A stretch of DNA of 36,821 nt from Chloroflexota bacterium (GTDB lineage: Bacteria; Chloroflexota; UBA6077; CF-72). The position numbers were made by a program, and so were the translations under genes. How positions within the stretch are numbered: position 1 is the stretch's first letter; each line of letters opens with the position of its first letter. The stretch is taken from NCBI GenBank assembly GCA_005883405.1, contig VBGG01000516.1, positions 1 through 36,821 on the forward strand, in the 5' to 3' direction. This document shows, one piece after another, positions 997-36,821 of this stretch. The notes under the pieces were generated by a model that saw only the letters and a program-made list of their open reading frames with translations, was not told the DNA's origin and did not search any database.

Positions 997-3375
997 TCAA
1001 CCGGGTTGTTCGGAGCCGTTTCTGAAGCGTCTGGGCGCGGGTTCGCGGCCCGGCGGTTGGCTCGGCCGCGGGCGGGCGGGAGCAGGCGGAATTGGCCAGC
1101 TCACTGGGCGGGCCGCGGTGAGCGTGAAGGGCAGTCCGTGATGGCTGGTCTCCATTGGTTCGCCATCGCGCAGCTCGTACACCGCGCTCGCGTGGGTGGT
1201 GGTTATCCGCAAGCGCCGCTTCCGATAGAGGAGGTTGAACACCAGGCGGTCGATCCCGGCGGGCAGTCGCGGCGCGAAGCACAGGCTGTCACCCCGAGGT
1301 CGCAGCCCGCCGAAGCCGGCCACCAGCGCGATCCAGGCCCCCGCTAGCGCCGCGATATGCACGCCGTCGCGGGTATTGTGCTCCAGATCGTGGAGGTCCA
1401 GCAGCGCGCTTTCGCCGAGATAATCGTACGCGAGATCGGTCTGGCCCACCTCCGCGGCGATCACCGCCTGCGTACCCGCCGAAAGCGATGAGTCGCGCAC
1501 GGTGATCCGTTCGTAATAGTCGAAGTTGCGCGCCTTCTGCTCGTCGGTAAAGACGTCCGTGCGGAGCAGCATCGCGTGTACCAGATCAGGCTGTTTGACC
1601 ACCTGCTTGCGATAGAGATCGAAATAGTGGTAGTGCAGCAACAGCGGGTAGTGATCGGGCGGAGTAGCGGCAAAGTCCCACACTTCGTGCTCGGTGAACC
1701 CCTCCGACTGCGGGTGCACGCCCAGGCGCTCGTCATACGGAATGAACATCGCTTCCGCCGCCAATCGCCAGGCGCTTGGCTCGTCCGCGGCAACCCCAAG
1801 CTCAGCCGCCCGCTCCGGGTGTCGCGCGCAAGCATCGGCGGCCGTGCGCAGGTTCTGTTCGGCCATCAGGTTGGTGAATACGTTGTTGTCGGCCAGGGCG
1901 CTGTACTCGTCGGGACCAGTGACCCCGTCAATGCGGAACCTGCCCTGGGTGTCGGTGTAGCCAAGCGAGCGCCATAACCTGGCCGTGTGCACGAGCAGGT
2001 CCAGCCCCGTTTCCCGCTCGAAGTCGTCGTCGTCGGTGGCGTGGACGTAGCGCACGACGGCGTCGGCAATGTCAGCATTGATGTGGAAGGCAGCGGTGCC
2101 CGCGGGCCAGTAGCCGCAGCACTCGTGGCCGTCGATGGTCCGCCAGGGGAAAGCAGCGCCCTCCAGTCCGAGAACTCGCGCTCGTTCGAGCGCGATCGGC
2201 AGCGTCGAGTGTCGCCAGCGCAAGGCGGACGCCGCCGCGGCCGGCATGGTGCGGGTCAGAAGCGGCAGCACGAACGCCTCGGTGTCCCAGAACGCATGGC
2301 CGTCGTAGCCCGGGCCGGTCAGGCCCTTGGCCGGAATCGGCCGGTCCTCTCCGCGCGCCGCCGCCTGGAGGATGTGAAACAGCCCGAAGCGAACGGCCTG
2401 CTGGACCTCGTCGTCGCCGCGAAGCTCCACATCCGCTCCCTCCCAGAACTCGTCCAGGTAGGCCCGCTGCTCGGCTAACAGGCCGTCCCAGCCCGTCTTG
2501 CAGGCGGCCTTCAACGCCGCGAGCACCTGATCGCTCAGCGCCTGACGCGATCTGTGGCGCGACCAGCCATACGCCAGAAACTTGACAATCCGCAGGCGCT
2601 GGCCGGCCGCGAGGCGGGTGGTCACCGTCACCCGCCCCGTATCAGGTGCCGACTCGCAATCGGCCTCCGTTCCCGGCGGACCTTCGATCACGTGGTCCAT
2701 AGCGGCCGCCACGCCCAGGCCACTATTCTTTGTGCGATGCACCAGCTTGGCTCTCAGGTCGCGACAGCTGAATTCCTCCGACAGCAGCGGCGCCTCCATG
2801 GCTGCCGTGCCGCGCGGATCGGTCGTAAATGGCGGAGCTGGCAGCGGCTCGTTCGCGATCAGCTCCGATTGCACGACGATGCGCGCCGCGTTGCCGACCG
2901 GTTCCACTTCGTAACTGATCGCCGCGACCGAGCGTTGTGTGAATGACACCAGCCGCACGGACGTCACGCGCACCATCTGGCCGGCCGGTGAAGTCCACTC
3001 CGCTCGCCGCTCCAGCGTACCCGCGCGCAGGTCGAGGATCCGTTCATGCCCCGTCAGCCGGCCGTACCGAATGTCGAATGGCTCATCATCCACCAGCAAG
3101 CGGATGAGCTTGCCATTGGTGACGTTGATCACCGTCTGGCCGGACTCCGGGTACCCGTATCCGGGCTCGACGTACGCCAGTGGCCGCAGGTCGTAGACCG
3201 AATTCAAGTACGTGCCCGGCATGCCGCTGGGCTCGCCTTCGTCCAGGTTGCCGCGCAGACCGATGTGGCCGTTGGCCAGGGCAAAGATCGACTCCGTCTG
3301 CGCCAGCACATCCAGGTCCAGCGCGTCCTCGCGTATTCGCCAGGACTCGACCGCAAACGCGGGATGACGGATCAT
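997..3375 (-). CDS. GH65 family disaccharide phosphorylase (maltose/trehalose/kojibiose type)
   Basis: The 792-residue product has the normal length and order of a GH65 inverting phosphorylase: an N-terminal beta-sandwich (about 1-270, with FALANGHIGLRGN near 31-43), a linker, an (alpha/alpha)6 barrel (about 320-690) and a small C-terminal sheet. The barrel has HAFWDTEAF (360-368) and GVTGPDEY (484-491); Glu490 matches the family's general acid. Such enzymes cleave an alpha-linked glucose disaccharide with phosphate, giving beta-glucose 1-phosphate and glucose in the cytosol. Which disaccharide is used cannot be read from sequence by eye. Its start overlaps the stop of the upstream HAD gene by 4 bases (ATGA), so the two are translationally coupled and the product is probably passed to beta-phosphoglucomutase. 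Confidence 0.93.
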   Translation of the reverse strand: MIRHPAFAVESWRIREDALDLDVLAQTESIFALANGHIGLRGNLDEGEPSGMPGTYLNSVYDLRPLAYVEPGYGYPESGQTVINVTNGKLIRLLVDDEPFDIRYGRLTGHERILDLRAGTLERRAEWTSPAGQMVRVTSVRLVSFTQRSVAAISYEVEPVGNAARIVVQSELIANEPLPAPPFTTDPRGTAAMEAPLLSEEFSCRDLRAKLVHRTKNSGLGVAAAMDHVIEGPPGTEADCESAPDTGRVTVTTRLAAGQRLRIVKFLAYGWSRHRSRQALSDQVLAALKAACKTGWDGLLAEQRAYLDEFWEGADVELRGDDEVQQAVRFGLFHILQAAARGEDRPIPAKGLTGPGYDGHAFWDTEAFVLPLLTRTMPAAAASALRWRHSTLPIALERARVLGLEGAAFPWRTIDGHECCGYWPAGTAAFHINADIADAVVRYVHATDDDDFERETGLDLLVHTARLWRSLGYTDTQGRFRIDGVTGPDEYSALADNNVFTNLMAEQNLRTAADACARHPERAAELGVAADEPSAWRLAAEAMFIPYDERLGVHPQSEGFTEHEVWDFAATPPDHYPLLLHYHYFDLYRKQVVKQPDLVHAMLLRTDVFTDEQKARNFDYYERITVRDSSLSAGTQAVIAAEVGQTDLAYDYLGESALLDLHDLEHNTRDGVHIAALAGAWIALVAGFGGLRPRGDSLCFAPRLPAGIDRLVFNLLYRKRRLRITTTHASAVYELRDGEPMETSHHGLPFTLTAARPVSWPIPPAPARPRPSQPPGREPAPRRFRNGSEQPG

Positions 3376-4115
3376 ACGCGATCGAGCAGCTCGGCCAGAT
3401 CGCCGACGACAATGTCCGCTCCGCGCTCGAGGAGCGCCTCTCGCTGACCAACGCGGTCCACGCCGACGACGAAACCGAAATTCCCCCCTCGACCGGCTTC
3501 CACTCCAGCCAGTGCGTCTTCGAACACGGCCGCCTCCGACGGCGCGACATTCAGCCGACGCGCCGCGGCGAGATACGTGTCGGGCGCCGGCTTGCCCTTC
3601 AGCCGCTCTTGCTCGGCGACGACCCCGTCAATGCAGACGTCGAACTCATCGGCGATGCCGGCGGCCTTCAGTACCTCGTGGGTGTTAGCGCTGGCGGACA
3701 CCACCGCACGGCGCAGACCCGCCTCGCGGACCGCGCGCAGGTAGCGCAGTGATCCGGGGTAAACCTTCACACCGCCGGTGCGCAACCGCTCCAGCAGGAT
3801 CGCATTCTTGCGGTTGGACAGCGCGTGGATCGTCTCCACTTCGGGCGGATCGTCTGGTTCGCCTTCGGGAAGCGTGATGCCTCGTGACTGCAAGAAGGTC
3901 CGCGTGCCGTCGGCTCGGGCTCGGCCGTCCACATATAAGTCGTAATCACGCACTGGGTCGAACGGCGCGAAGGGTGTGCCCGTGCGCTTTGCCCATACAG
4001 CGAGAAAGGCGTCGAACGTGTCCTTCCACGCCGCCGCGTGGACCGTGGCTGTCTCGGTGAGTACACCGTCGAGGTCGAAAAGACAGGCGCCAATACCCTC
4101 TGGCAAACCGAGCAC
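3372..4115 (-). CDS. pgmB: Beta-phosphoglucomutase-type HAD hydrolase
   Basis: A 247-residue HAD-superfamily protein. Motif I is DLDGVLTE (14-21; Asp14 nucleophile, Asp16 general acid/base, as in phosphomutases). A helical cap follows; motif II is the Ser in VVSASANTHE, motif III is the Lys in KGKPAPDTY and motif IV is FEDALAGVEAGR. The DLDGV(L/I)T signature and KPAPD are typical of beta-phosphoglucomutase and close relatives. It would convert beta-glucose 1-phosphate to glucose 6-phosphate. The start is GTG at 4115. The ATGA overlap with the GH65 phosphorylase is the classic pairing for this enzyme and is the main argument for mutase rather than phosphatase activity. Confidence 0.9.
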   Translation of the reverse strand: MLGLPEGIGACLFDLDGVLTETATVHAAAWKDTFDAFLAVWAKRTGTPFAPFDPVRDYDLYVDGRARADGTRTFLQSRGITLPEGEPDDPPEVETIHALSNRKNAILLERLRTGGVKVYPGSLRYLRAVREAGLRRAVVSASANTHEVLKAAGIADEFDVCIDGVVAEQERLKGKPAPDTYLAAARRLNVAPSEAAVFEDALAGVEAGRGGNFGFVVGVDRVGQREALLERGADIVVGDLAELLDRV

Positions 4116-4186
4116 ATGCCGAGTCTACGACTCCGACTTACCGTGGCAATTTCGCTGCCAACATTGGGTGTCTGGGCGGCGGAATA

Positions 4187-5191
4187 ATGGGCTTGCCAAT
4201 GCACGCCGAGCCCGCTGCAGGTCAGGCTGAGGTGCCGAGTCGCATCGTCGTCCTCGGTGGGCTGAACGCGGATCTCGTCGTCGCCGTGCCGCGCCTGCCG
4301 CGACCCGCCGAAACGATCATGGGCGAGCGCCTGCGCACGTTTGCTGGCGGCAAGGGCGCCAATCAAGCGGTCGCCGCGGCGCGACTCGGCGGCGCCGTCA
4401 GCATGGTGGGCCGCGTCGGCCAGGACGCGTTCGGCGACATGCTGCTGGAGTCGCTCGTTGGCGACGGGATCGACACCACCGCCATCGGCCGCGACGCCGA
4501 GGAGCCGACCGGCGCGGCGCTGATCTTCGTCGAAGAAGGCGGCCAGAACATGATCGCCGTCGCCCCGGGCGCCAACGCAAAGGTCGGCCGACAGGAGGTC
4601 GATCGCCTGGCCACCTTGCTCGATGCAGCCAGCGTCCTGCTTGTCCAGCTCGAGGTCCCACTGATGGCGGTGGAGGCGGCCGTTCAGGCCGCCCGCCAGG
4701 CTGGCGCACGTGTCATCCTGAACGCCGCGCCGGCGATCTCGAAGCTGCCTGACGCGCTGCTGCAAGCGGTGGACGTGCTGGTGGTCAACGAGGTGGAGGC
4801 GTCGAGCCTCTTCGGGCGTCCCGTCGAAAGCCAGGACGAGGCCGCGGCCGCCGGGCGGGCCGCGCTGGAGAACGGCGTCGGGGCAGCCATCGTGACGCTC
4901 GGCGCCGCGGGTTCGGTCGTGGTCGATCGCAGCGGGGCGTCGCCGATCGCCGCTTATCCAGTGGTCGCGGTCGATGCGACCGCGGCGGGCGATGCGTTCG
5001 TGGGTGCGCTCGGCGTGGCGCTCGGGCGCGGCGCGGATCTGCGGTCCGCGGCGCGTCTGGGAGCAGCCGCGGGCGCCGCGGCGGCGTCTCGCCCAGGTGC
5101 CCAGAGCTCCTTGCCGCGCCATAATGAGATAGAGGAATCTCTCGAGCGCGCAAAGCCCCAGCAAGCGGGACCTAAGTCTGACGCTGGCTAG
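4187..5191 (+). CDS. rbsK: Ribokinase-like PfkB family sugar kinase
   Basis: A PfkB-fold kinase with both family signatures. AGGKGANQA (about 53-61) binds the sugar, and DATAAGDAF (263-271) carries the anion hole and the catalytic base Asp269. LGGLNAD near residue 23 starts the first strand, and the usual N-E-x-E metal site is NEVEA near 201-205. These features fit ribokinase or a near relative phosphorylating a furanose or other sugar with ATP. About 18 residues precede the expected start of the fold, so ATG 4199 or GTG 4232 may be the true start. It is divergent from pgmB across about 70 bases. No ribose transporter or repressor is adjacent, so the substrate is unassigned and the symbol is tentative. 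Confidence 0.88.
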   Translation: MGLPMHAEPAAGQAEVPSRIVVLGGLNADLVVAVPRLPRPAETIMGERLRTFAGGKGANQAVAAARLGGAVSMVGRVGQDAFGDMLLESLVGDGIDTTAIGRDAEEPTGAALIFVEEGGQNMIAVAPGANAKVGRQEVDRLATLLDAASVLLVQLEVPLMAVEAAVQAARQAGARVILNAAPAISKLPDALLQAVDVLVVNEVEASSLFGRPVESQDEAAAAGRAALENGVGAAIVTLGAAGSVVVDRSGASPIAAYPVVAVDATAAGDAFVGALGVALGRGADLRSAARLGAAAGAAAASRPGAQSSLPRHNEIEESLERAKPQQAGPKSDAG

Positions 5192-5241
5192 GCCCACCGC
5201 CCCTGGGGATAGCGTGCGCCCAAAAGTAAAATCGCGTTCGC

Positions 5242-6675
5242 ATGACTGTTGCAACCGCCGCAATTCGAGCCGTACACTGGGACGGCACGGCCATCCTGGC
5301 CAGGTTCCGTGTTGCGCCGCGGTGGTCGTTGGCGCGACAGTATCTGGTCGCCAGCTTGCTCGTGGTGCTCACCGGTGTCGTGATCACCGGCGCCTGGATT
5401 GGCCACCAGATCGAAGCGAGTGTGCTCGACCGCACCGCCGGGATCTCCGCGCTCTACATCGATAGTGTGGTCAGCCCGAATCTGCAGAGCCTCGCCCAGG
5501 GCGATCGCTGGCTCCCGCAGAGTGACACTGCCGCGCTCGACCACCTGTACTCCGAAACGGGCCTGGGCCAGGGCGTCGTGCTCTTCAAGATCTGGTCGCT
5601 CGACGGACGGGTCCTGTACTCCCCAGATGTCGCGGTCGTCGGCCGACAGTTCCCGCTGGACACTGGCCTGACGCAGGCGATGCACGGCGAGGTGGCCGCC
5701 GACATCAGCAGCCTGGACGAGCCGGAAAATACGTACGAGCGTGCGCGCTTCAGCCGCCTGGTGGAGGTATATGCGCCAGTTCGTTCGGTCAGCGACGGTC
5801 GCGTCATCGCCGTCAACGAGTTCTACCTGCGGCCCGACGCGCTCGATGCCGACATTCGCGAGGCCCAGCTTCGCTCGTGGGCAGTCGTCGGCGGTATCGG
5901 GCTGTTCACCTACCTCATCCTGTCGGGCATCGTGAAGCGCGGCAGCGACACGATTCGCCGACAGCAAACCGAGCTGCAGCGCCGCCTGGACCAGAACGTG
6001 CGGTTGCACGAGCGCGTGCGTCAGGCCGCGGGTCGGACCACGGCCTTGAACGAACAGGCACTCCGCCGCATCAACGCCGACTTGCACGATGGGCCTGGAC
6101 AGGCGCTGGCACTGGCATTGCTGCGGCTGGACGCGCTCCAGGCGCCGTGCGAAAGCGACGACGGCACGCAAACTCGCGACGACTTCGCGACGGTCCAATC
6201 GGCAGTACGTGACGCGCTCAGTGATGTTCGGGCGATCTCGGCCGGCTTGCGGCTGCCCGAGCTCGGGGCGATGTCCGTGGCCGAAGTCGCGGTGCGAGCG
6301 ATCGACGATCATCAACGCCGCAGTGGCGTGACGGTCGGCCGCCGGCTCGAGGGGCTACCCGAGCACGCGCCCCTGCCGATCAAGATCGCGGTGGTGCGGA
6401 CCTTGCAGGAAGCGCTGTCGAATGCGACGCGACACGGCGAGGGTCGGGGCATCCAGGTGTCTATGCAACGCGAGGCGGACGCCCTGCGCCTTTCGGTCGA
6501 GGATCATGGCCCCGGTTTCGACCCCCAAGCCGCCGACCGCTCTGGACACCTTGGACTGGCAGGCATGCGTGAGCGCGCCGAAGTGCTGGGCGGATCGTTC
6601 GAGGTAGTGTCGGCGCCAGGCGCCGGCACCGCCGTGATGGTGCGGCTTCCGTTGACCGCGCGGGTCGTCGTATGA
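5242..6675 (+). CDS. NarL-type sensor histidine kinase
   Basis: A 477-residue membrane kinase. Two hydrophobic segments (about 34-54 and 213-231) flank a roughly 155-residue extracytoplasmic sensor domain. A coiled-coil linker (235-265) follows, then a HisKA_3 dimerisation motif INADLHDGPGQ with His282 as phospho-acceptor. The HATPase_c domain has LQEALSNATRHG (N box), EDHGPGFD (G1) and GHLGLAGMRERAEVLGG (G2). This is the arrangement of NarX/DesK-type kinases that phosphorylate LuxR-type regulators. The stop overlaps the regulator start by 4 bases. The periplasmic domain resembles no ligand class I can name. Its convergent position with livKHM suggests, but does not show, a link to amino-acid sensing. 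Confidence 0.93.
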   Translation: MTVATAAIRAVHWDGTAILARFRVAPRWSLARQYLVASLLVVLTGVVITGAWIGHQIEASVLDRTAGISALYIDSVVSPNLQSLAQGDRWLPQSDTAALDHLYSETGLGQGVVLFKIWSLDGRVLYSPDVAVVGRQFPLDTGLTQAMHGEVAADISSLDEPENTYERARFSRLVEVYAPVRSVSDGRVIAVNEFYLRPDALDADIREAQLRSWAVVGGIGLFTYLILSGIVKRGSDTIRRQQTELQRRLDQNVRLHERVRQAAGRTTALNEQALRRINADLHDGPGQALALALLRLDALQAPCESDDGTQTRDDFATVQSAVRDALSDVRAISAGLRLPELGAMSVAEVAVRAIDDHQRRSGVTVGRRLEGLPEHAPLPIKIAVVRTLQEALSNATRHGEGRGIQVSMQREADALRLSVEDHGPGFDPQAADRSGHLGLAGMRERAEVLGGSFEVVSAPGAGTAVMVRLPLTARVVV

Positions 6676-9364: not shown

Positions 9365-9426
9365 GCGTCACGCAGGGCGTCACGTGGAGCGTCACGTGGG
9401 CGTCATGCGGGCGTCACGCGCGTCAC
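9365..9426. repeat. Short tandem repeat array with a GCGTCAC core
   Basis: Six copies of the core GCGTCAC (one variant, GCGTCAT) start at 9365, 9377, 9389, 9400, 9411 and 9420, with periods of 12, 12, 11, 11 and 9 bases. Units read like GCGTCACGTGGA. The array sits in the 309-base gap between the livK-like gene and livH, both on the minus strand, so it would lie in the operon's mRNA, where it reads GTGACGC repeatedly. The rest of this gap shows no gene I would accept. Confidence 0.75.
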
Positions 9427-9458
9427 AATTTTGCGCGGTATGCGAAATCTGCGGGCAT

Positions 9459-10817
9459 CTAGCGCTGGGCGAACGGTTTGGCGGGGTACTGGATCTGACC
9501 GCCCACCTGGTCGGGGGGCCACACGGTGACCTGCTTACCGCTCTGCCACTGCTCGTAGATCGTGACGACGTTACCGGTGCCGTCAGGATTGAAGGTGACC
9601 GGACCGATTACCGACGATGTCATATTCGTCGAGGCGAGTGCTGCTCGCAGGCTATCTCGGTCCAGCGCATCGGCGCGGGCGAGCGCGTCGGCAAACACCT
9701 GGACGACCGCGTAAGCGGCGCCCACCACACCTTCGGGGGGCTTGTTGTAGGCAGCTTGATACGCCTTGACCATGTCTGCGTTACCGGCGAACTTCAGGTC
9801 CGCACCCCAGCCCGGTGCGCCGACGGTAAAATCGCCGTCCTTCCCGAGCGCCGTGGACCAGGCGCCGGAGTCCGAGGCGCGGATGATGTTGAAGAGCTTC
9901 GGATTGACGTCCAACTCTTTCATCTGTTTGACGATCGCGATGCCGTCCGGCGGCGTAGGCACCATCAGCACGGCATCGGGATTTGCGCTCTTGGCCTTCA
10001 ACAGCATCGATGAGAAGTCCGTCGAACCAGGCGCATACTGCTCCTCGACGACGACCTCAAAGCCGCTGTGCGATTGCGCCTGCTGCTTCCAGCCGTTCTG
10101 CATCTCGGCGCCCCAGTCCGTCTTTTCGGCGAAGATCGCCACCCGCGCCGGCTTCGGATTCAGCGTATCCATCAGGTCAAAGATCGCTTTGGTGAGCAGG
10201 GGCGACTTCGGAAACGGCGAGAACAGGTATCTGTACCCCTGCTGGTGGATCGAGTACAGCGCAAACGCCACCCCGACATAGGGCGTCTTGTTCTTCTCGG
10301 CGACGGCCGCCGCGGCGGCGTGCAGGTCGCTGCCGAAGCCACCGAAATACGCCAGGATGCCGGAATTGTTGAGCGTCTCCATACGCTGCGCGGTCTGGTT
10401 CGCGTCCGAGGCATCATCGAGAATGTTGATCTCGAGGGGCAGCTTGCGGCCGAGCGCCTTGACCATGGCGCCGCCGCTGGAATTAATATCTTTGACCGCC
10501 AGCTCATAGCCGTTCTTGATCTGCTCGCCACCCGACGCATAGCGACCCGTCAGGCCGACGGCGGCGCCGACCTTGACGCTCGTCACCGCGTTTCCAGCGG
10601 CGGCGGCGGGTGCCTGCGTCGCGGCTGCGGCGGGCGCTTGCGTCGCGGCCGGCTTCGCGGGAGCCGCCGTCGGCGCCGGCGCGGCCGCCGGTTGGCAGGC
10701 CGCCAGGAGTGAGCCACCCAGCGCGGCGCTCGCCACCGCCATTCCGCGCAGCACGACGCGGCGCGAGAGACGGCGTGTTGCCGCGGCTTGATGAAGCTGC
10801 ATGTGGTCCTCAGACAT
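9459..10817 (-). CDS. LivK-like substrate-binding lipoprotein of an ABC importer
   Basis: A 452-residue exported binding protein of the type 1 periplasmic family. The N-terminus has S-R-R-V-V-L-R (18-24, Tat-like), a hydrophobic stretch and lipobox LLAA-C41. A low-complexity Ala/Pro/Thr linker (42-75) then tethers the domain to the membrane. The mature part begins VKVGAAVGLTGRYASGG, as in Leu/Ile/Val-binding proteins, and contains NGYELAVKDIN and GVVGAAYAVVQVFADAL. A GGAGGAGGGG ribosome site precedes the ATG. It is the first gene of the livK-livH-livM order. The ligand could be an amino acid, amide or aromatic acid, since this family is broad. The divergent FAD amine oxidase suggests an amino or N-methyl compound. 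Confidence 0.93.
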   Translation of the reverse strand: MSEDHMQLHQAAATRRLSRRVVLRGMAVASAALGGSLLAACQPAAAPAPTAAPAKPAATQAPAAAATQAPAAAAGNAVTSVKVGAAVGLTGRYASGGEQIKNGYELAVKDINSSGGAMVKALGRKLPLEINILDDASDANQTAQRMETLNNSGILAYFGGFGSDLHAAAAAVAEKNKTPYVGVAFALYSIHQQGYRYLFSPFPKSPLLTKAIFDLMDTLNPKPARVAIFAEKTDWGAEMQNGWKQQAQSHSGFEVVVEEQYAPGSTDFSSMLLKAKSANPDAVLMVPTPPDGIAIVKQMKELDVNPKLFNIIRASDSGAWSTALGKDGDFTVGAPGWGADLKFAGNADMVKAYQAAYNKPPEGVVGAAYAVVQVFADALARADALDRDSLRAALASTNMTSSVIGPVTFNPDGTGNVVTIYEQWQSGKQVTVWPPDQVGGQIQYPAKPFAQR

Positions 10818-10890
10818 CGTTCCCCTCCTCCTGGAAACCGAATAGTAGTGGACGCGGCAGACTCAGGTACGGTATCCACCAGGCACAACC

Positions 10891-12054
10891 ATGGACGAGC
10901 AGCCACGCCACGCAGAGGTGGCGATCATCGGCGGTGGTGTCATGGGCGCCAGCGTCGCCTACCACCTCGCGCTGCGCGGCCAGCGTGATGTGCTGCTGCT
11001 GGAGCGCGGCGACTTGTTCGGCCAGGGCGCGACAGGCAAGTGCGCCGGCGGCATCCGCTTCCAGTTCGGAAGCGAGATCAATATCCGCCTGTCGCTCGAG
11101 AGCATCCCCATGCTCGAACGCTTCGAAGAGGAGCTGGATCAGCCGATCGGATTGCACCACGGCGGCTACCTCTTCGTGCTCACGCGTGCGGCCGACGTGC
11201 AGGTCTTTCGACGCAATGTGGACCTGCAACGACGGCTCGGCGTGCCTACGGAGTGGCTCGAGCCGGACCAGGTCCGCCACCAACTACCTCTGCTGAAGTT
11301 CGACGATGCGCTGGGCGGCACGTTCAATGCGCGCGACGGCCTGTGTGACCCGAGCAGCGTTGTGAACGGATACGTCCACGCCGCTCGTCGGCTCGGGGTG
11401 ACGTGCCTCACGAACGTGGAGGTCACCGGACTTCGCGTCACGCGCGATAGGGTGACGACGGTGGTCACGCCGCTCGGCGACATCGAGGTGGGCAGCGTGG
11501 TGAACGCAGCCGGACCTTTCGCTGGCGAGGTGGGTCGGATGATGGACCTGGATCTGCCTATCGTTCCACTTCGGCGTCAGATGCTGGTGACCACACCGCT
11601 GCCGGAAGTGCCGCCGGATTTCCCGTTCGTGATCGACTTCGCCACCGGGTTGTACTTTCATCGCGAAGGTCCGGGCATCATGACCGGCATGGCCAATCCG
11701 AGCGAGCCTGTCGGGAGTGATGAGCGCGTCGATCTCGCCTGGGAGCAGGTCCACCTGGAGGCTGCTGTGCAGCGATTTCCGCTGCTCGCCCAGGCCGGGC
11801 TGGCGCACCACTGGGCGGGGCTCTACGAGATGTCGCCTGACGCCCACCCACTGATCGGGCGGCTCGAGCCGATCCAGAACGCGTACGTGGTGGCCGGCTT
11901 CTCAGGTCACGGCTTCATGCATGGGCCGATCGCCGGCAAGCTGCTCGCCGAGGTAATCCTCGACGGCAGCGCCTCGAGCCTGGACATTGGCGTCCTCAGC
12001 CCGACGCGTTTCGCACTTCACTCCGCCGCGCCCCACGAATACAACGTGGTCTGA
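10891..12054 (+). CDS. FAD-dependent amino acid/amine oxidoreductase (DAO family)
   Basis: A 387-residue DAO-superfamily flavoprotein. The dinucleotide-binding motif GGGVMG (14-19) lies in the first strand-turn-helix, with Glu40 of LLLERG expected to bind the FAD ribose. FARDGLCDPS-type and VVNAAGPFAGEVG motifs follow, and the C-terminal GLYEMSPDAHPLIGR and VVAGFSGHGFMHGP complete the pattern seen in sarcosine oxidase beta subunits, glycine oxidase and dimethylglycine dehydrogenase. It would oxidise a secondary or primary amine in the cytosol, passing electrons to oxygen or a carrier. It is divergent from the LivK-like gene (73-base gap), consistent with uptake and oxidation of the same compound. 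The exact substrate is not inferable. Confidence 0.92.
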   Translation: MDEQPRHAEVAIIGGGVMGASVAYHLALRGQRDVLLLERGDLFGQGATGKCAGGIRFQFGSEINIRLSLESIPMLERFEEELDQPIGLHHGGYLFVLTRAADVQVFRRNVDLQRRLGVPTEWLEPDQVRHQLPLLKFDDALGGTFNARDGLCDPSSVVNGYVHAARRLGVTCLTNVEVTGLRVTRDRVTTVVTPLGDIEVGSVVNAAGPFAGEVGRMMDLDLPIVPLRRQMLVTTPLPEVPPDFPFVIDFATGLYFHREGPGIMTGMANPSEPVGSDERVDLAWEQVHLEAAVQRFPLLAQAGLAHHWAGLYEMSPDAHPLIGRLEPIQNAYVVAGFSGHGFMHGPIAGKLLAEVILDGSASSLDIGVLSPTRFALHSAAPHEYNVV

Positions 12055-12058
12055 GAGT

Positions 12059-12809
12059 TTACGCGCGGTTGGCGCTGTTCCAAATGTCGGGAACCGGCTG
12101 CATTACGCGTGGCTGGCGGTTGGGGTCAGTGAGCTGCTCCACCTCGGCGGTGTACTCGACGGTGTTGCCCTCCGGATCGTGGTAATAGGAGAAGAGATTG
12201 TTACCGAAAAGGTGACGGCCCGGACCCCACACCCGACGGATGCCGCGTTCACCGGCGTAGAAGACGGCCTTGAGCCACATTGCACGCCCAGAAGCTCAGC
12301 CCGCCGATGAAGCGGTCGGTCAGCTTGAAGCCCAGCATCTCGCGGTAGAAGCGCTCCGAGCGTTCGATATCGCCCACGTTCAGCACGACGTGGTTCAGAT
12401 CCTGAGGCTTCACATCGCGCGGGCCGAAGGGGTCATGGACGCGGTCGACGCCCGCGACTAGCTCCACCAGGAAGCCGTCCGGATCTTTGAAGCGGATGGC
12501 CTTTGCGATGCCCGGCTCGAGCTCCTGCGCCGGCGGCGTCACCACCTCGATGCCGCCGGCCGCGAGCTCCTCGTACGCGCGGTCGACGTCCTCGGGGGCG
12601 GCCACCTCGAGCGCGACGTGATGCAGGCCGGGCGTTGGCTGCTCGTGCAGGGTCAGCACGTGGTGGGCCGGCCCTTCGGCGCGGAAGAACATCTCGCGGC
12701 CGAACTCGTCGATGCGTTCGAGGCCCCACTTGTCGTTGTAGAACTCGGCCTGGCGGCTGAGATCGGTGGCGTTCAGGCCCACGTGGGCCAACTTGACGAC
12801 TCTGACCAT
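12059..12809 (-). pseudogene. VOC-family extradiol dioxygenase-like gene with internal deletion and frameshift
   Basis: The first frame (12809-12249) encodes two glyoxalase/VOC modules: an intact N-terminal one (LAHVGLNATDLSRQAEFY, with GLHHVALEV and DPDGFLVEL) and the start of a second (LNHVVLNVGDIERSERFY up to SFWACN). The rest of module two resumes in another frame from about 12280 (RRVWGPGRHLFGNNLFSYY, DPEGNTVEY). Between SFWACN and the GPGRH segment, family members normally have about 45-60 residues, including a metal-binding His; here these are missing and the frame changes. The gene therefore looks inactivated by a deletion. Ring-cleaving dioxygenases of this type act on catechols in the cytosol. 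It converges with the FAD oxidoreductase 5 bases away. Confidence 0.75.
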
Positions 12810-13148
12810 GGCTGCGACGTACCCCGCGCTGTGGAGTCTACCCCGCGCGTTGGCGCGCTTGCCGCCACGTGAAGTCGTAACAACCCTTCACTTCAGCGTA
12901 ACCATGTAAGCGCCTCTCGTTCCCGAAAGTTAGCGCAGTCTGGCACGCCCAATGCTGGCACCACCTCGCGTTTGCTGGTCCGTTCGCGATCGACGCGAGC
13001 GGACCTGGCGTCGCTGCGTCCGGGCAACTACACGTGTGTCCGCGAAAGGGGGTGGTTCCGCACACTCACGCAGACTCCGCCGGGTCCGCTGCACCCACCC
13101 CTCTTGGATCCGCCACCCCGCTCTCTCAGTGCGAGGAGCTTCTGATCG
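12810..13148. other. Intergenic leader region with a long hairpin
   Basis: This 339-base gap separates the divergent VOC remnant and the secreted protein gene. I see no convincing gene. It holds an imperfect inverted repeat, 12977-12988 against 12994-13005: GGTCCGTTCGCG and CGCGAGCGGACC, a 5-base loop and one G-T pair. Nearer the gene, GAGGAG (about 13132-13137) is a reasonable ribosome site before ATG 13149. There is no T-run after the hairpin, so it is not an obvious terminator. Confidence 0.5.
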
Positions 13149-32440: not shown

Positions 32441-33541
32441 TCAAGAGTCTCCGGCGATGATGTTCTGCAGTGGCACGGCATGCGGTCGCTCAGAGCGACT
32501 CTGAACCGCCACCGCGCGAGCTTCGTACGCCGATCGAAGCAGCGACTCCATGACGTCCAACACGTGAAATGCCAGCCTGCCGCCGGCGCGAGGCTCCTGG
32601 TCCGCGGCGGTACAGGCCAGGTCGTGCACTCCGAAGCCGCGTGATGCGCCGACGTAGCCGGCCGAAACTGGCAGCGTGTCCCAGTCTGTGGTGGCGAGAG
32701 TTCTGACCAGGACATCACCGTCGAAGCGGTTCGGGTCGGGCACCACCAGAGATCCCTCCTCGCCGTGTACCTCGATCCGGGCTGACTGCGTGGCGACCGT
32801 GTCGAAACTCATATAGATCGTTGAAAGCACGCCAGAGGCGTGGACCAGAACACCCGTGACGTGGGTGTCGGTCGAAACTGGAATTACCTCGCCTTGACGC
32901 GGGCCCTTACCGATGGTGCGGCTGGCCCGTGTACGGCTGGCCGCGCCGACCACCGACATGACGGGTCCCAGCATGGTGACAAGCGCAGAGATGTAGTACG
33001 GACCCATGTCGAGGAGCGGTCCGCCGCCCGGCGAGTAGTAAAAATCCGGGCTGGGATGCCAGCGCTCGGGACCGGCAGTACCCAGCGTCGCGGTGGCGGC
33101 GATGGGCGAGCCTATGACGCCGTCGTCGATCGCCTTGCGGGCCGTCTGGATGCCCGTCCCCAGCACCGTATCCGGGGCGCATCCGATCCGCACTCGGGCG
33201 AGCGTGGCCTCGTCCAGCACCCGGCGGGCCTCGGCGGTGGTCGATGCGAGCGGCTTCTCGCCGTACACACTCTTGCCGGCGGCCACTGCTCGCAAACCAA
33301 TGTCGGCGTGCGCGGCTGGGATGGTCAGGTTCAGTACCAGGTCCACCTCGTCATCTGCCAGCAAGTCGTCAACGCTCAAAGCACGGACCCCCGGATGATC
33401 TCTCGCAACCGCTTCAGCGCGCGCCAGGTCCAGGTCGGCCGCGGCGACGACTTTGACGGTTGAGAGTCGACCAAAAGTGTGCAAATACGCGGCGGCAATG
33501 GTGCCGCATCCGACAATGCCGACCCTTAGCGGCTGGCCCAC
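32441..33541 (-). CDS. Gfo/Idh/MocA family oxidoreductase
   Basis: A 366-residue NAD(P)-dependent dehydrogenase. The Rossmann motif VGIVGCGTIAAAYL (G11-x-G13-x-x-A16) starts the protein, and the family motif EKPLA (95-99) contributes the catalytic Lys96. The second half is the alpha/beta dimerisation domain with GGGPLLDMGPYYI, where D-x-G-x-Y-x-x is typical. Members oxidise or reduce a hydroxyl of a sugar, inositol or related compound. The start lies 16 bases inside the end of the upstream ThuA-like gene, so they are translated together. The convergent TIM-barrel isomerase is a likely pathway partner. Confidence 0.92.
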   Translation of the reverse strand: MGQPLRVGIVGCGTIAAAYLHTFGRLSTVKVVAAADLDLARAEAVARDHPGVRALSVDDLLADDEVDLVLNLTIPAAHADIGLRAVAAGKSVYGEKPLASTTAEARRVLDEATLARVRIGCAPDTVLGTGIQTARKAIDDGVIGSPIAATATLGTAGPERWHPSPDFYYSPGGGPLLDMGPYYISALVTMLGPVMSVVGAASRTRASRTIGKGPRQGEVIPVSTDTHVTGVLVHASGVLSTIYMSFDTVATQSARIEVHGEEGSLVVPDPNRFDGDVLVRTLATTDWDTLPVSAGYVGASRGFGVHDLACTAADQEPRAGGRLAFHVLDVMESLLRSAYEARAVAVQSRSERPHAVPLQNIIAGDS

Positions 33542-34221
33542 AGCATCCCTCTTTCAATGATTGTTCGCACGTTCACGTTCTCGAGAATTTCCACCCGATG
33601 GCCGGGGGTGCACACAAAGATCCTGCCCTGGCCCCAACGCCGCGTCCATATCGCCGGCGAAGTGACCGGCCGCGTCCACGGATCCCACTCACGAACGGCC
33701 TGGGTCGTAGTCGCCAGCACGTCGATGTAGCTGTCGACGAGCACCCAGTACTGCTCGGTCACCAGGTCGAAATCCGCGATGCCCTGGGTGATGGGATGGT
33801 CGGCGGCCTGAGGTAGCATATTGATGCGGTACGGCACGTAGTTGTCGGATTGTTCACCGGTACGTTCGGCGGGGTGCTTGCCAGGGTGGCAGGCAAACTG
33901 ACCACCGATCAGGTGCAGATAGTCCGACGAATTGCGATACGAGTCTGCGATGCCGCCGTGCCAGCCGGCCATGCCGGTGCCGGCCTCGATTGCCGATCGC
34001 AAACCCTGTAGTTGCTGGCGCTCGATGGTAGCCATCGTATTGCACTGGACGATCAGGTCCACGGTCAGCATGTACTCGGAATCGGCGTAGACCGCGGGCG
34101 ATTCCTCGATGCGGATCGAAAAGCCGTTGGCTTGCAGGAACGGGATGAAGAGCTCGGTCGCCATCTTCGGCTGATGACCCTCCCAGCCGCCGCGCACAAT
34201 CAGCGCTCTCCTGCCAATCAT
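33526..34221 (-). CDS. ThuA-like domain protein (glutamine amidotransferase-like fold)
   Basis: A 231-residue cytosolic protein. MIGRRALIVRGGWEGHQP opens the first strand, then LTVDLIVQCNTMATIE, and GTGMAGWHGGIADSYR replaces the nucleophile elbow of class I glutamine amidotransferases with G-W-H-G-G, the ThuA hallmark. YVLTDSY-like VLVDSYIDVLATT and WGQGRIFVCTPGHRVE follow. I choose ATG 34221 because GAGG lies 8 bases before it and the fold begins there; a longer frame to 34404 adds 61 unlike residues. ThuA is linked to trehalose/disaccharide catabolism (3-keto sugars), and the overlap with Gfo/Idh/MocA supports a sugar role. Confidence 0.88.
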   Translation of the reverse strand: MIGRRALIVRGGWEGHQPKMATELFIPFLQANGFSIRIEESPAVYADSEYMLTVDLIVQCNTMATIERQQLQGLRSAIEAGTGMAGWHGGIADSYRNSSDYLHLIGGQFACHPGKHPAERTGEQSDNYVPYRINMLPQAADHPITQGIADFDLVTEQYWVLVDSYIDVLATTTQAVREWDPWTRPVTSPAIWTRRWGQGRIFVCTPGHRVEILENVNVRTIIERGMLWASR

Positions 34222-34445
34222 CACACGTACCTCGCCACCATGATGAGCATACGGGTCGGGGGAGCCCTGCGGGCCCCCGCGGAGCATGGAAGGCGCTGGA
34301 CGTATGTTCGGCACCATAACGCAGAACGAGCTCGGTTCCGTTGCCATCCGTCGACGAACCTCGTCGGTGATTACACCCTGGGCCACCTGGCTATGGCCGC
34401 TCAATCGACCTTCCGGCCGAGCTTACCGAGGTGCAGCTCGACGGA

Positions 34446-35837
34446 TCACCCTGAACGCGGAACCGCCGTCTGGTGGCGACGAATCTCGACGTGATTCAAG
34501 GCGGACTCCAGGCCGTCCAGGATGCGGTAGCAGTCGTGGCGCAGGGTGTGCGGGTCGGGCGCTCGGAGGAGGAGCGTGCCTGCGTAGTTTCGGGTGCCGG
34601 CGGTGGGCGAGAAGGCGGGCATGGGCGCGCCGTTGGGGCGCGACTGGGTGCGGATGAGCTCGACCTGCGTCCCGACGGACGTCAGGCTGCGCCAGTCGAG
34701 CTCATCGGGTCGGAAATCCGGCAAGGTGGACCATGGCTTGCCGCGCGAATCCGTCGCGAGGAGCATGAGCGACGCGACGGCACGGCTGGCACCGCTTGAC
34801 GTGAGCATGGAGTGCGGCAACTCCGCGTCTTTGTCCAGCAGCGTGCACACGAGCATTTCCAGCAGATCCACCCCGAACGCCTCGTGGACCAGGCGTGGGA
34901 TCATCGCGCCGCCGAGCCGCGCGGCGTTTTCGAGCAAGCACAGGCGACCATCGCGCTGCAGCTTGAGCTCGGTGTGCGTACCGCAATCCTCGAGTCCAAG
35001 CGCGTCGATTGCACGGCGGACCTCGGCCTCGATGATGCGCTGCTTGTCGACCGATAACACCGTGGGCACGTGGAAGCTCGACTCCACGAACGGCGGAATG
35101 GTCGGCAGGCGGGCAGTGATGCACACCGGGTGGTAGCGTCCGTTGCAGACAATGCCTTCAACGCTGACGTAGTCGGCATACCCGTCATCGTCGTACCACG
35201 ACTCCGTACTGGACTGGATGATCTCCTCGGCGATGAACTGCGGGCCGCGACCGATGGGCATGAACTCGCACAGATTGACGCGCTCCATGTCCTCAACCGC
35301 GATGGCAGCGATGCGCCACGCCGTCGCCAGGTCAGTGTCGCGGTCGACGATGACCTGTCCCTGGGAGCAGGCCAGCCAGGTCGGTTTGAGCAGGAACGGC
35401 CGGGGCAGCTCGCGCGCCGCGCGCTGGAGGTCCTCCAGCGAGCGCACCGCGACATATGCCGGACCAGACAGCCCGTGTTGCCGCCAGGTGGCGCGCATCT
35501 CGACCTTGTCGCGCGAACGGACGACGTTCGGGCCTGGACCGCGCAAGCCGAGCACCTCGCTGGCCTTGGCTACGGCGACGATCGCGAACTCGCTGAAGGC
35601 GACAATCGCGTCGGCCGCGACGTCACGTGCCGCGTCGACGACACAGTAAGGCATGGCATCCAGGCTGCCGTAGCGGACCGATGTGCACCATTCGTCGAGC
35701 ATCGGCGTCAGGGCGGGTGAGGGCGGAGCGACGAGCAGGGCGTGGACGTCCCCATGGCGTCGGAGTCGAGGTAAGGCGAACTCCGGCGGCGGCCCGCCGA
35801 CCGGCGGGATGACATACAGAATGGAAGCGTTCGTCAT
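34446..35837 (-). CDS. ATP-grasp ligase (amino-acid/dipeptide ligase-like)
   Basis: A 463-residue protein with an N-terminal pre-ATP-grasp domain (1-105), N-V-V-R-S-R-D-K-V-E-M-R (104-115) leading into the ATP-grasp, Lys151 in FLLKPTW, hinge acids in FIAEEII (201-207), GTHTELKL (286-293) and the metal/ATP motif LLENAARLGG (301-310: Glu303, Asn304, Arg307). This order matches BacD-, carnosine synthase- and biotin-carboxylase-like ligases, which join a carboxylate to an amine via acyl phosphate using ATP. The roughly 110-residue C-terminal part resembles the lid-plus-tail of those enzymes. It overlaps the cyclase-family gene by 4 bases in an operon with a class IV aminotransferase. The product is unknown. 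Confidence 0.9.
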   Translation of the reverse strand: MTNASILYVIPPVGGPPPEFALPRLRRHGDVHALLVAPPSPALTPMLDEWCTSVRYGSLDAMPYCVVDAARDVAADAIVAFSEFAIVAVAKASEVLGLRGPGPNVVRSRDKVEMRATWRQHGLSGPAYVAVRSLEDLQRAARELPRPFLLKPTWLACSQGQVIVDRDTDLATAWRIAAIAVEDMERVNLCEFMPIGRGPQFIAEEIIQSSTESWYDDDGYADYVSVEGIVCNGRYHPVCITARLPTIPPFVESSFHVPTVLSVDKQRIIEAEVRRAIDALGLEDCGTHTELKLQRDGRLCLLENAARLGGAMIPRLVHEAFGVDLLEMLVCTLLDKDAELPHSMLTSSGASRAVASLMLLATDSRGKPWSTLPDFRPDELDWRSLTSVGTQVELIRTQSRPNGAPMPAFSPTAGTRNYAGTLLLRAPDPHTLRHDCYRILDGLESALNHVEIRRHQTAVPRSG

Positions 35838-36625
35838 CGGGATACCTCGGAGCGCTCAACAAGCGCGAGAACACGCGTGGGACTGCCGGAGCCGCCTACA
35901 ATCGGTAGCGGCCCCGCGAATAGGACAGCGCCGCGGGGTGGAAGTCGGTGCAAGTTCTGCAATTGGGTGAGGCCGTACTTGTTTGCGCCCTGCATGTAGC
36001 AGTGGCACGGAAAGGCCGGATCGAAGTTCATTGCCTGGCCGGCGTCAGTGCCCACGGTCTCCACGCCGAGACCAATCACAGACGTCTCCTGAGCAAGCCA
36101 GCGGGCACACTCCGGAGCGACGCCGGGCGTGTGTCCTCCGTTGAGGAACTGCTCGGCGTCGTCACGTCTGGCGTCCCAGCCGGTGCGGTACAGGAGCCAG
36201 GCGTTCTCCGGAAAGTGGCCGTGTTGCGCCTGCCAGGCCTCGACGTGCTCGCGGCGCAGCAGGAAGTCCGGGTCCGCGGCGGCCTCCGCGGAATAGTCGA
36301 GCACCACGGCCGGTCCAATGAGCCGACGCGCTGGCACCTGAGAAACGTCGTCGAGATGGCGACCCGATAGCCAGTGGATCGGCGCATCGAAATGCGTGCC
36401 GGTGTGTTCGGAGAGGCTGATGTTGTTCCAATACACATTCTCGCCCGCGTGGTCGTAGCGACTGATCACACACCGTTCGAAGGGACATGGCTGACCGTGC
36501 GTCGGCGGCAGTCGAATGATCGGTGTGCGCTCCGATAGTGGCGCCGTGAGATCGATGACCTCAACTGAGCCATCCACCATCCGGTCGCACAACTCGGCCA
36601 GCAGTGCCACGTCAGCGATCTCCAA
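35834..36625 (-). CDS. Cyclase-family metal-dependent hydrolase (kynurenine formamidase-like)
   Basis: A 263-residue protein of the Cyclase family (PF04199 type). It has VEVIDLTAPLSERTPI near 21-36, the metal motif S-E-H-T-G-T-H-F-D-A-P-I-H (72-84; His74, His78, Asp80, His84) and IGLGVETVGTDAG in the second half, where Glu completes the metal site. LLYRTGWDAR is also typical. Members hydrolyse amides or lactams such as N-formylkynurenine or isatin. The stop overlaps the ATP-grasp start and its own start lies 14 bases inside the aminotransferase end, so the three genes are tightly coupled. kynA/kynU are not present, so kynurenine is not implied. Confidence 0.9.
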   Translation of the reverse strand: MEIADVALLAELCDRMVDGSVEVIDLTAPLSERTPIIRLPPTHGQPCPFERCVISRYDHAGENVYWNNISLSEHTGTHFDAPIHWLSGRHLDDVSQVPARRLIGPAVVLDYSAEAAADPDFLLRREHVEAWQAQHGHFPENAWLLYRTGWDARRDDAEQFLNGGHTPGVAPECARWLAQETSVIGLGVETVGTDAGQAMNFDPAFPCHCYMQGANKYGLTQLQNLHRLPPRGAVLFAGPLPIVGGSGSPTRVLALVERSEVSR

Positions 36626-36821
36626 CCGACGCGTGGCCGACCACGCCGTTCACCGGCATCGGCGAGTACACCGGGGTGGTCCAGCTCTCGCGCGCTGACT
36701 CCCCGCGGACCGCCTGGTCGAACCGCTCCTGCAGCCGGCGTGTGAGCGGACCTCGGAGTCCGTCGCCAACCGGCAAGCGATCGATAGACACCACGGGCTG
36801 GATCTCAGCCAGCGTGCCGCA
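36612..36821 (-). CDS. Class IV (branched-chain type) aminotransferase, C-terminal part
   Basis: The last 69 codons of a gene that continues beyond the right edge. CGTLAEIQPVVSIDRLPVGDG is followed by PLTRRLQERFDQAVRGE. G-T-x-A-E-(I/V)-x-P-V is the conserved phosphate-loop segment that ends the PLP-binding fold of IlvE/DAAT/PabC enzymes. About 17 extra residues follow after the usual W-x-T-P-V end. The enzyme would move an amino group between an amino acid and a 2-oxo acid. Its stop overlaps the cyclase-family start, making it the upstream member of the ATP-grasp operon. Whether it makes a branched-chain, D- or other amino acid is not visible. Confidence 0.78.
   Translation of the reverse strand, partial: CGTLAEIQPVVSIDRLPVGDGLRGPLTRRLQERFDQAVRGESARESWTTPVYSPMPVNGVVGHASVGDR

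Follow-up and report, generated by a model that had tools for sequence, protein, structure and literature searches.

In this study, we extended the gene content around three overlapping genes at the edge of a Chloroflexota contig and relate it to active-site residues and to known enzyme families. The three genes are probably the contig-cut end of an NRPS-free cluster that makes a small amide or peptide derived from tryptophan. A first-pass annotation of the window (the whole stretch of 36,821 nucleotides analysed here, contig C506 of genome G000) had taken the trio as a pathway by itself; it appears instead as the end of a cluster of about 9-18 genes starting from tryptophan. The full gene set is known from three genomes, in one of which it is split over two contigs.

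Genes of the window

All three genes lie on the minus strand. They encode a BacD-like ATP-grasp carboxylate-amine ligase of 463 aa (34446..35837; Pfam ATP-grasp_4), a cyclase-family (PF04199) metal-dependent amide hydrolase of the isatin-hydrolase type (35834..36625; 263 aa, with a TTG start assumed) and the last 69 codons of an aminotransferase of class IV, branched-chain type (36612..36821, open at the contig edge). Pfam and NCBIfam matches to ATP-grasp_4, Cyclase PF04199 and ilvE_I agree with the three families as originally read. The 4-base overlap (ATGA) between cyclase and ligase is certain from the sequence, while the 14-base overlap reported between aminotransferase and cyclase requires the TTG start at 36625 and would be abolished by a GTG start at 36610. 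Such overlaps suggest co-transcription, perhaps with translational coupling; the stoichiometric synthesis earlier deduced from them does not follow. In two further genomes, belonging to two phyla, the same three families are again found together and at high identity, which makes the trio more than a chance grouping. Downstream of it, a family search identified ThuA and MocA-type genes (32441-34404) that look like sugar metabolism, and these were rejected as cluster members because no homologues stand beside the trio in either of the other genomes.

Since the contig ends at 36821, inside the aminotransferase gene, this gene is cut to a C-terminal fragment, and its PLP-binding lysine and substrate pocket lie outside the window. 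The 69-aa fragment aligns with branched-chain aminotransferase models over just their final ~50 positions (NCBIfam ilvE_I, E 4e-10) and is 61% identical to the C-terminus of a complete aminotransferase from a second Chloroflexota genome, G230. The latter scores 151 bits against PF01063 and 252 against ilvE_I (cut-off 245.6), and matches a solved branched-chain aminotransferase (BCAT) with E 8e-109. By sequence, the window tail is BCAT-like; the class IV assignment holds for the family, of which the window carries a C-terminal fragment only.

The cluster beyond the contig edge

Further members had been predicted beyond the right edge of the window, and we located them with the help of G230. In that genome (locus L053) the same three genes are adjacent and in the same order as in the window, inside a larger cluster. 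Their strand also carries two TDO-family genes, a divergent one (TDO2) and a shorter one (TDO1), together with genes for an FAD aromatic hydroxylase, a kynureninase-like PLP enzyme of class V, an ATP-grasp of the LAL type that has a LAL_C2 domain, and an MFS transporter, as well as a LuxR-type gene. The facing strand holds DAHP synthase, trpE, trpGD, trpC, trpF, trpB, trpA and a third ATP-grasp (trpC, trpB and trpA were read from ORFs, and trpA was confirmed separately). Probing with G230 DNA recovered the genes missing past the window edge, at 68-75% DNA identity, on contig C644 of G000: an FAD hydroxylase truncated where the contig ends, TDO2 (1176-2414), the kynureninase-like gene (2710-3846), TDO1 (3856-4578) and an LLM-type monooxygenase (4601-5470), followed by the LAL ATP-grasp, MFS and LuxR genes and, divergently, by DAHP synthase (9416-10198), TrpE (10195-11682) and the third ATP-grasp (11710-13023).

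Judged by the G230 spacing, the gap between the window edge and C644 is about 1.2-1.25 kb, as long as the rest of the aminotransferase gene and the end of the hydroxylase together. C506 and C644 have GC contents of 0.659 and 0.651 and a tetranucleotide correlation of 0.978; they remain separate contigs in the assembly, and bin contamination is estimated at 7.9%. Near the contig end the C644 hydroxylase reads in two frames, reflecting either an assembly error there or a damaged gene. The kynureninase-like enzyme of G230 scores higher against SufS (95 bits) than against kynureninase (56 bits), and the solved structure closest to the G000 copy is kynureninase. A search of the class and a search of the G230 family returned no further cluster members. 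A 48-bp match was also seen on contig C211.

Conserved synteny in several phyla, which the first-pass annotation had named as support for a pathway, was found in two. A tblastn search of PLSDB identified the ATP-grasp at 60% identity (67% for the G230 copy) in the actinomycetotal Nonomuraea gerenzanensis, on LT559118, an 11.85-Mb record that is evidently a chromosome filed as a plasmid, with TDO2 about 6 kb away. The locus (L083, about 11 kb) comprises TDO1, a KynU-like gene, TDO2, FAD hydroxylase, aminotransferase, a cyclase 68% identical to that of the window, a MarR-like ORF on the other strand, LLM, an MFS-like ORF and the ATP-grasp at 5578944-5580305, so that the trio is present in both Chloroflexota and Actinomycetota. 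Common to all three clusters are the two TDO-family genes, the kynureninase-like PLP enzyme, the aromatic FAD hydroxylase, the aminotransferase, the cyclase, the MFS exporter and the BacD-like ligase; the two additional ATP-grasp ligases and the dedicated DAHP synthase/trp genes are found in both Chloroflexota clusters only. As a single ATP-grasp was found at the Nonomuraea locus, the BacD-like enzyme is the core ligase and the other two are Chloroflexota additions.

The ATP-grasp ligase

The ligase exceeds the cut-off of ATP-grasp_4 (PF13535; 36.7 bits against 27) and does not reach that of the BacD equivalog NF053745 (177.9 bits against 850). Its closest PDB match is BacD/YwfE (E 3e-48, over residues 66-346), the enzyme already named for comparison in the first-pass annotation; on these scores, the protein is a relative of BacD, not BacD itself. 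An AlphaFold model built from a 7-row alignment has a pLDDT of 50.8, too low to compare substrate pockets, and retrieves BacD/YwfE as the top Foldseek match, at a TM-score of just 0.36. With the window ligase as query, the BacD Trp332Ala mutant chain (3wo1) outscores the wild type by 2.2 bits, which agrees with the residue at the ligase's own site: it reads AARLGGAM, with Ala replacing Trp332, where the BacD motif is AARFAGW. The ligase was not found in the other 60 relatives searched, bar one 36% partial match, and the housekeeping role once considered for it is not supported. In BacD, Trp332 is a pocket residue important for substrate recognition (PMC6920838).

Homologues at 37-39% identity in Streptomyces (L006, L007, L009) are followed by a PPDK_N (PEP-synthase-like) protein, with an MFS transporter gene also nearby in L006 and L009, and no cyclase stands beside them. 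They first suggested that synteny is not conserved, a view that was dropped as they form a different sub-branch in a different small cluster. Separately, on a plasmid of Streptomyces NBC_01383 (L086), a 45% homologue belongs to another cluster, which also contains two more ATP-grasp genes and one gene each of the MFS, TauD-type dioxygenase and cysteine-synthase-like kinds.

The paired TDO-family proteins

In TDO1, which is about 240 aa long, the distal His, the substrate Arg and the haem His are all conserved, but the GTGGSSG loop of TDO is replaced by GTKGTPV. TDO2, of about 412 aa, retains the Arg, the haem His and a GTG-type loop; Leu takes the place of the distal His, and the N-terminus carries a long extension. 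The full set of these three residues and the GTGGS loop is seen in neither protein. TDO2 was present in 3 of 400 Chloroflexota genomes, each time with TDO1 close by and in two cases with the ligase, and at the seven loci inspected it was seen only near TDO1. A TDO1-type gene (52% identity) occurs without TDO2 in Vibrio campbellii (NZ_CP050465, L087, 11995-12684), and pairing is thus a rule for TDO2 but not for TDO1. Tentatively, TDO1 and TDO2 may form a heteromeric tryptophan oxygenase, to which TDO1 would give the distal His and TDO2 the GTG-type loop and the N-terminal extension, and which could feed an undescribed class of metabolites made from tryptophan, with ATP-grasp ligases as the joining enzymes here and NRPSs in Streptomyces.

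In the third Chloroflexota genome with TDO2 (G351, L080; G351:C1 13192-14438), TDO2 reads in two frames and adjoins an intact TDO1, with no ATP-grasp of the BacD-like kind nearby; neighbouring ORFs, read from their starts, begin like asparagine synthase and a GCS2-type carboxylate-amine ligase. Other settings of the pair were seen on plasmids. In Micromonospora zamorensis NZ_CP107937 (L084, 9422-17679), genes for a nitric oxide synthase and a globin-domain protein lie upstream of TDO1, a class V PLP enzyme, TDO2 and MFS, a setting unlike that of the clusters above. On the plasmids of Streptomyces NBC_01006 and NBC_01343 (L085, L088), TDO1 and TDO2 overlap by 4 bases inside NRPS clusters that also hold LysW-type, acyl-CoA dehydrogenase and penicillin-acylase-family genes.

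The cyclase

The cyclase matches PF04199 at 140 bits (cut-off 23) and is nearest to the isatin hydrolases (PDB 5nmp, E 1e-75). Against the KynB model (TIGR03035) it scores 34.3 bits, far from the cut-off of 223, and formamidase activity is accordingly only putative; KynB and isatin hydrolase have the fold and the metal motif in common (PMC6117287). We mapped its residues on those of isatin hydrolase in LaIHA numbering (PMC6117287). The motif HTGTHFDAPIH fits the isatin-hydrolase metal motif HxG[T/A]HxDxPxH, the metal ligands His69/His73/Asp75 are retained in the alignment, and so are the catalytic His79, Asp193 and His207, all identical. In the pocket, Trp59 is changed to Val and Tyr204 to Phe, while Trp61 and Trp80 are retained. 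The first-sphere metal ligand Gln219 is Thr, with a Gln at +1; the active isatin hydrolase LaIHB is also without Gln219.

Among 301 Chloroflexota genomes, one close relative of the cyclase was found (G230, 79%) and many at 48-65%; when the loci were read with 1.5 kb flanks, an aminotransferase and an ATP-grasp adjoined the cyclase in G230 only. A tree built from 33 cyclases places the copies of the window, G230 and Nonomuraea in one clade (support 100/99). All three lack the Trp59-equivalent aromatic, with Val in the window (GENVYW), loss in G230 (GEAYW, one residue shorter) and Val in Nonomuraea (GPTVYW), whereas the non-cluster Chloroflexota cyclases keep Trp59 in the stretches displayed (GPAWYW, GPAWFW or GPGWYW). 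Loss of the stacking Trp throughout the cluster clade suggests a substrate different from isatin. Most likely, the cyclase opens or deformylates an oxidised indole rather than forming a lactam, and it would have been recruited into biosynthesis with a changed pocket. The amide or peptide first guessed as product finds support at the level of the whole pathway; the lactam proposed with it does not.

In 23 of the 28 non-cluster relatives a ThDP-enzyme gene adjoins the cyclase, and one of these also stands beside a TDO. Such cyclases and ThDP-enzyme genes (whole or as apparent subunits; L025-L051) are possibly an isatin/isatinate degradation pair.

Proposed pathway and alternatives

From the gene content, its conservation, the active-site residues and the duplicated trp/aro genes we infer a route whose reactions, substrates and product are all predicted. 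DAHP synthase and TrpE, in G230 together with TrpGD, C, F, B and A, would boost tryptophan supply, and the paired TDO-family haem proteins would oxidise the indole ring of tryptophan. The cyclase may then hydrolyse the resulting amide, either the formamide of N-formylkynurenine or an oxindole-type lactam, to give an aniline amino acid of the kynurenine type. Tailoring of this unit, or supply of a partner amino acid, could fall to the FAD hydroxylase, the aminotransferase and the kynureninase-like PLP enzyme. The BacD-like ligase would activate a carboxylate as acyl phosphate and couple it to an amine; in the Chloroflexota clusters only, the two further ATP-grasp ligases may extend the product, which the MFS protein would export.

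A variant of this scheme keeps the same cluster and lets the TDO-family proteins act like MarE, by mono-oxygenation to 2-oxindole, so that the cyclase takes an oxindole or isatin-type lactam and not N-formylkynurenine. MarE forms 2-oxindole, and its altered loop, SLGGR, has been proposed to favour mono-oxygenation (PMC11904535); the TDO1 loop GTKGTPV likewise departs from GTGGS, and the nearest relatives of the cyclase, the isatin hydrolases, open a lactam. We nevertheless consider this variant less likely, as the Trp59 that stacks isatin is lost in all three cluster cyclases and the kynureninase-like enzyme in the operon suits a kynurenine intermediate better.

It appears unlikely that the genes form a catabolic operon, acting on tryptophan, indole or indole-acetate, to which the ATP-grasp would be an unrelated neighbour. 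TDO, kynureninase-like enzymes, aromatic hydroxylases and isatin-hydrolase-type cyclases are known in catabolism, and the ThDP-enzyme genes beside most non-cluster cyclases, with a TDO in one case, would fit such a function. The clusters, however, hold one to three ATP-grasp ligases, an MFS transporter and extra copies of genes for tryptophan synthesis (TrpE is present twice in G000 and TrpA twice in G230, with one copy of each within the cluster), and these copies argue against catabolism, as does the rarity of the gene set evident from the TDO2 survey. Weakest of all is a free-standing three-gene pathway making a dipeptide, amide or small lactam from the aminotransferase product: the window and G230 agree in the adjacency and order of the genes, but TDO-family, kynureninase-like, hydroxylase and MFS genes accompany them in all three genomes, and LLM and MFS genes separate cyclase from ATP-grasp in Nonomuraea, which makes it very improbable.

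Comparison with known systems

Every enzyme of the cluster belongs to a known family; for the combination as a whole, the searchable open-access literature yielded no matching pathway. No open-access paper was found that links an ATP-grasp with isatin hydrolase or with a kynurenine/tryptophan dioxygenase gene cluster, and among open-access papers on kynurenine clusters, by titles and abstracts, none was recognisable as describing the present one, which is not proof of absence.

The cluster would be a variant of NRPS-free ATP-grasp biosynthesis. Few ATP-grasp peptide pathways are known, and they are easily overlooked because they lack NRPS hallmarks; the present one, common to Chloroflexota and Actinomycetota, would begin with tryptophan oxidation. 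Its presence in Nonomuraea gerenzanensis means that the product can be sought directly. It resembles the bacilysin system of BacD/YwfE in its ATP-grasp ligase, for which BacD is nearest by sequence and fold search, and in being an NRPS-free cluster with an exporter; it differs in the Ala at the Trp332 site and in its setting, which is tryptophan oxidation here and anticapsin in bacilysin.

The cyclase has the fold family, the metal motif and the equivalents of the catalytic His79, Asp193 and His207 of the isatin hydrolases LaIHA, LaIHB and RsIHA. It differs in lacking the Trp59 aromatic, in having Thr for Gln219, a residue that LaIHB lacks as well, and in its neighbours, which are ligase and TDO-family genes where most relatives have a ThDP-enzyme gene. 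It would be a case of an isatin-hydrolase-type enzyme recruited into biosynthesis.

Recruitment of the kynurenine pathway into a natural-product cluster is known from fungal terreazepine, through a repurposed IDO (PMC7448278). The present cluster is similar in that a haem tryptophan oxygenase and kynurenine-type enzymes appear dedicated to a secondary metabolite; it differs in that ATP-grasp ligases, and not an NRPS, would form the amide, and in having two different TDO-family genes and an isatin-hydrolase-type formamidase candidate. With MarE of maremycin (PMC11904535) it shares the TDO family, an altered GTGGS loop and probable biosynthetic recruitment. Unlike MarE, it has a two-gene TDO1/TDO2 set, a recurrent pair of complementary TDO-family genes in which TDO2 is extended far at its N-terminus and has Leu at the position of the distal His.
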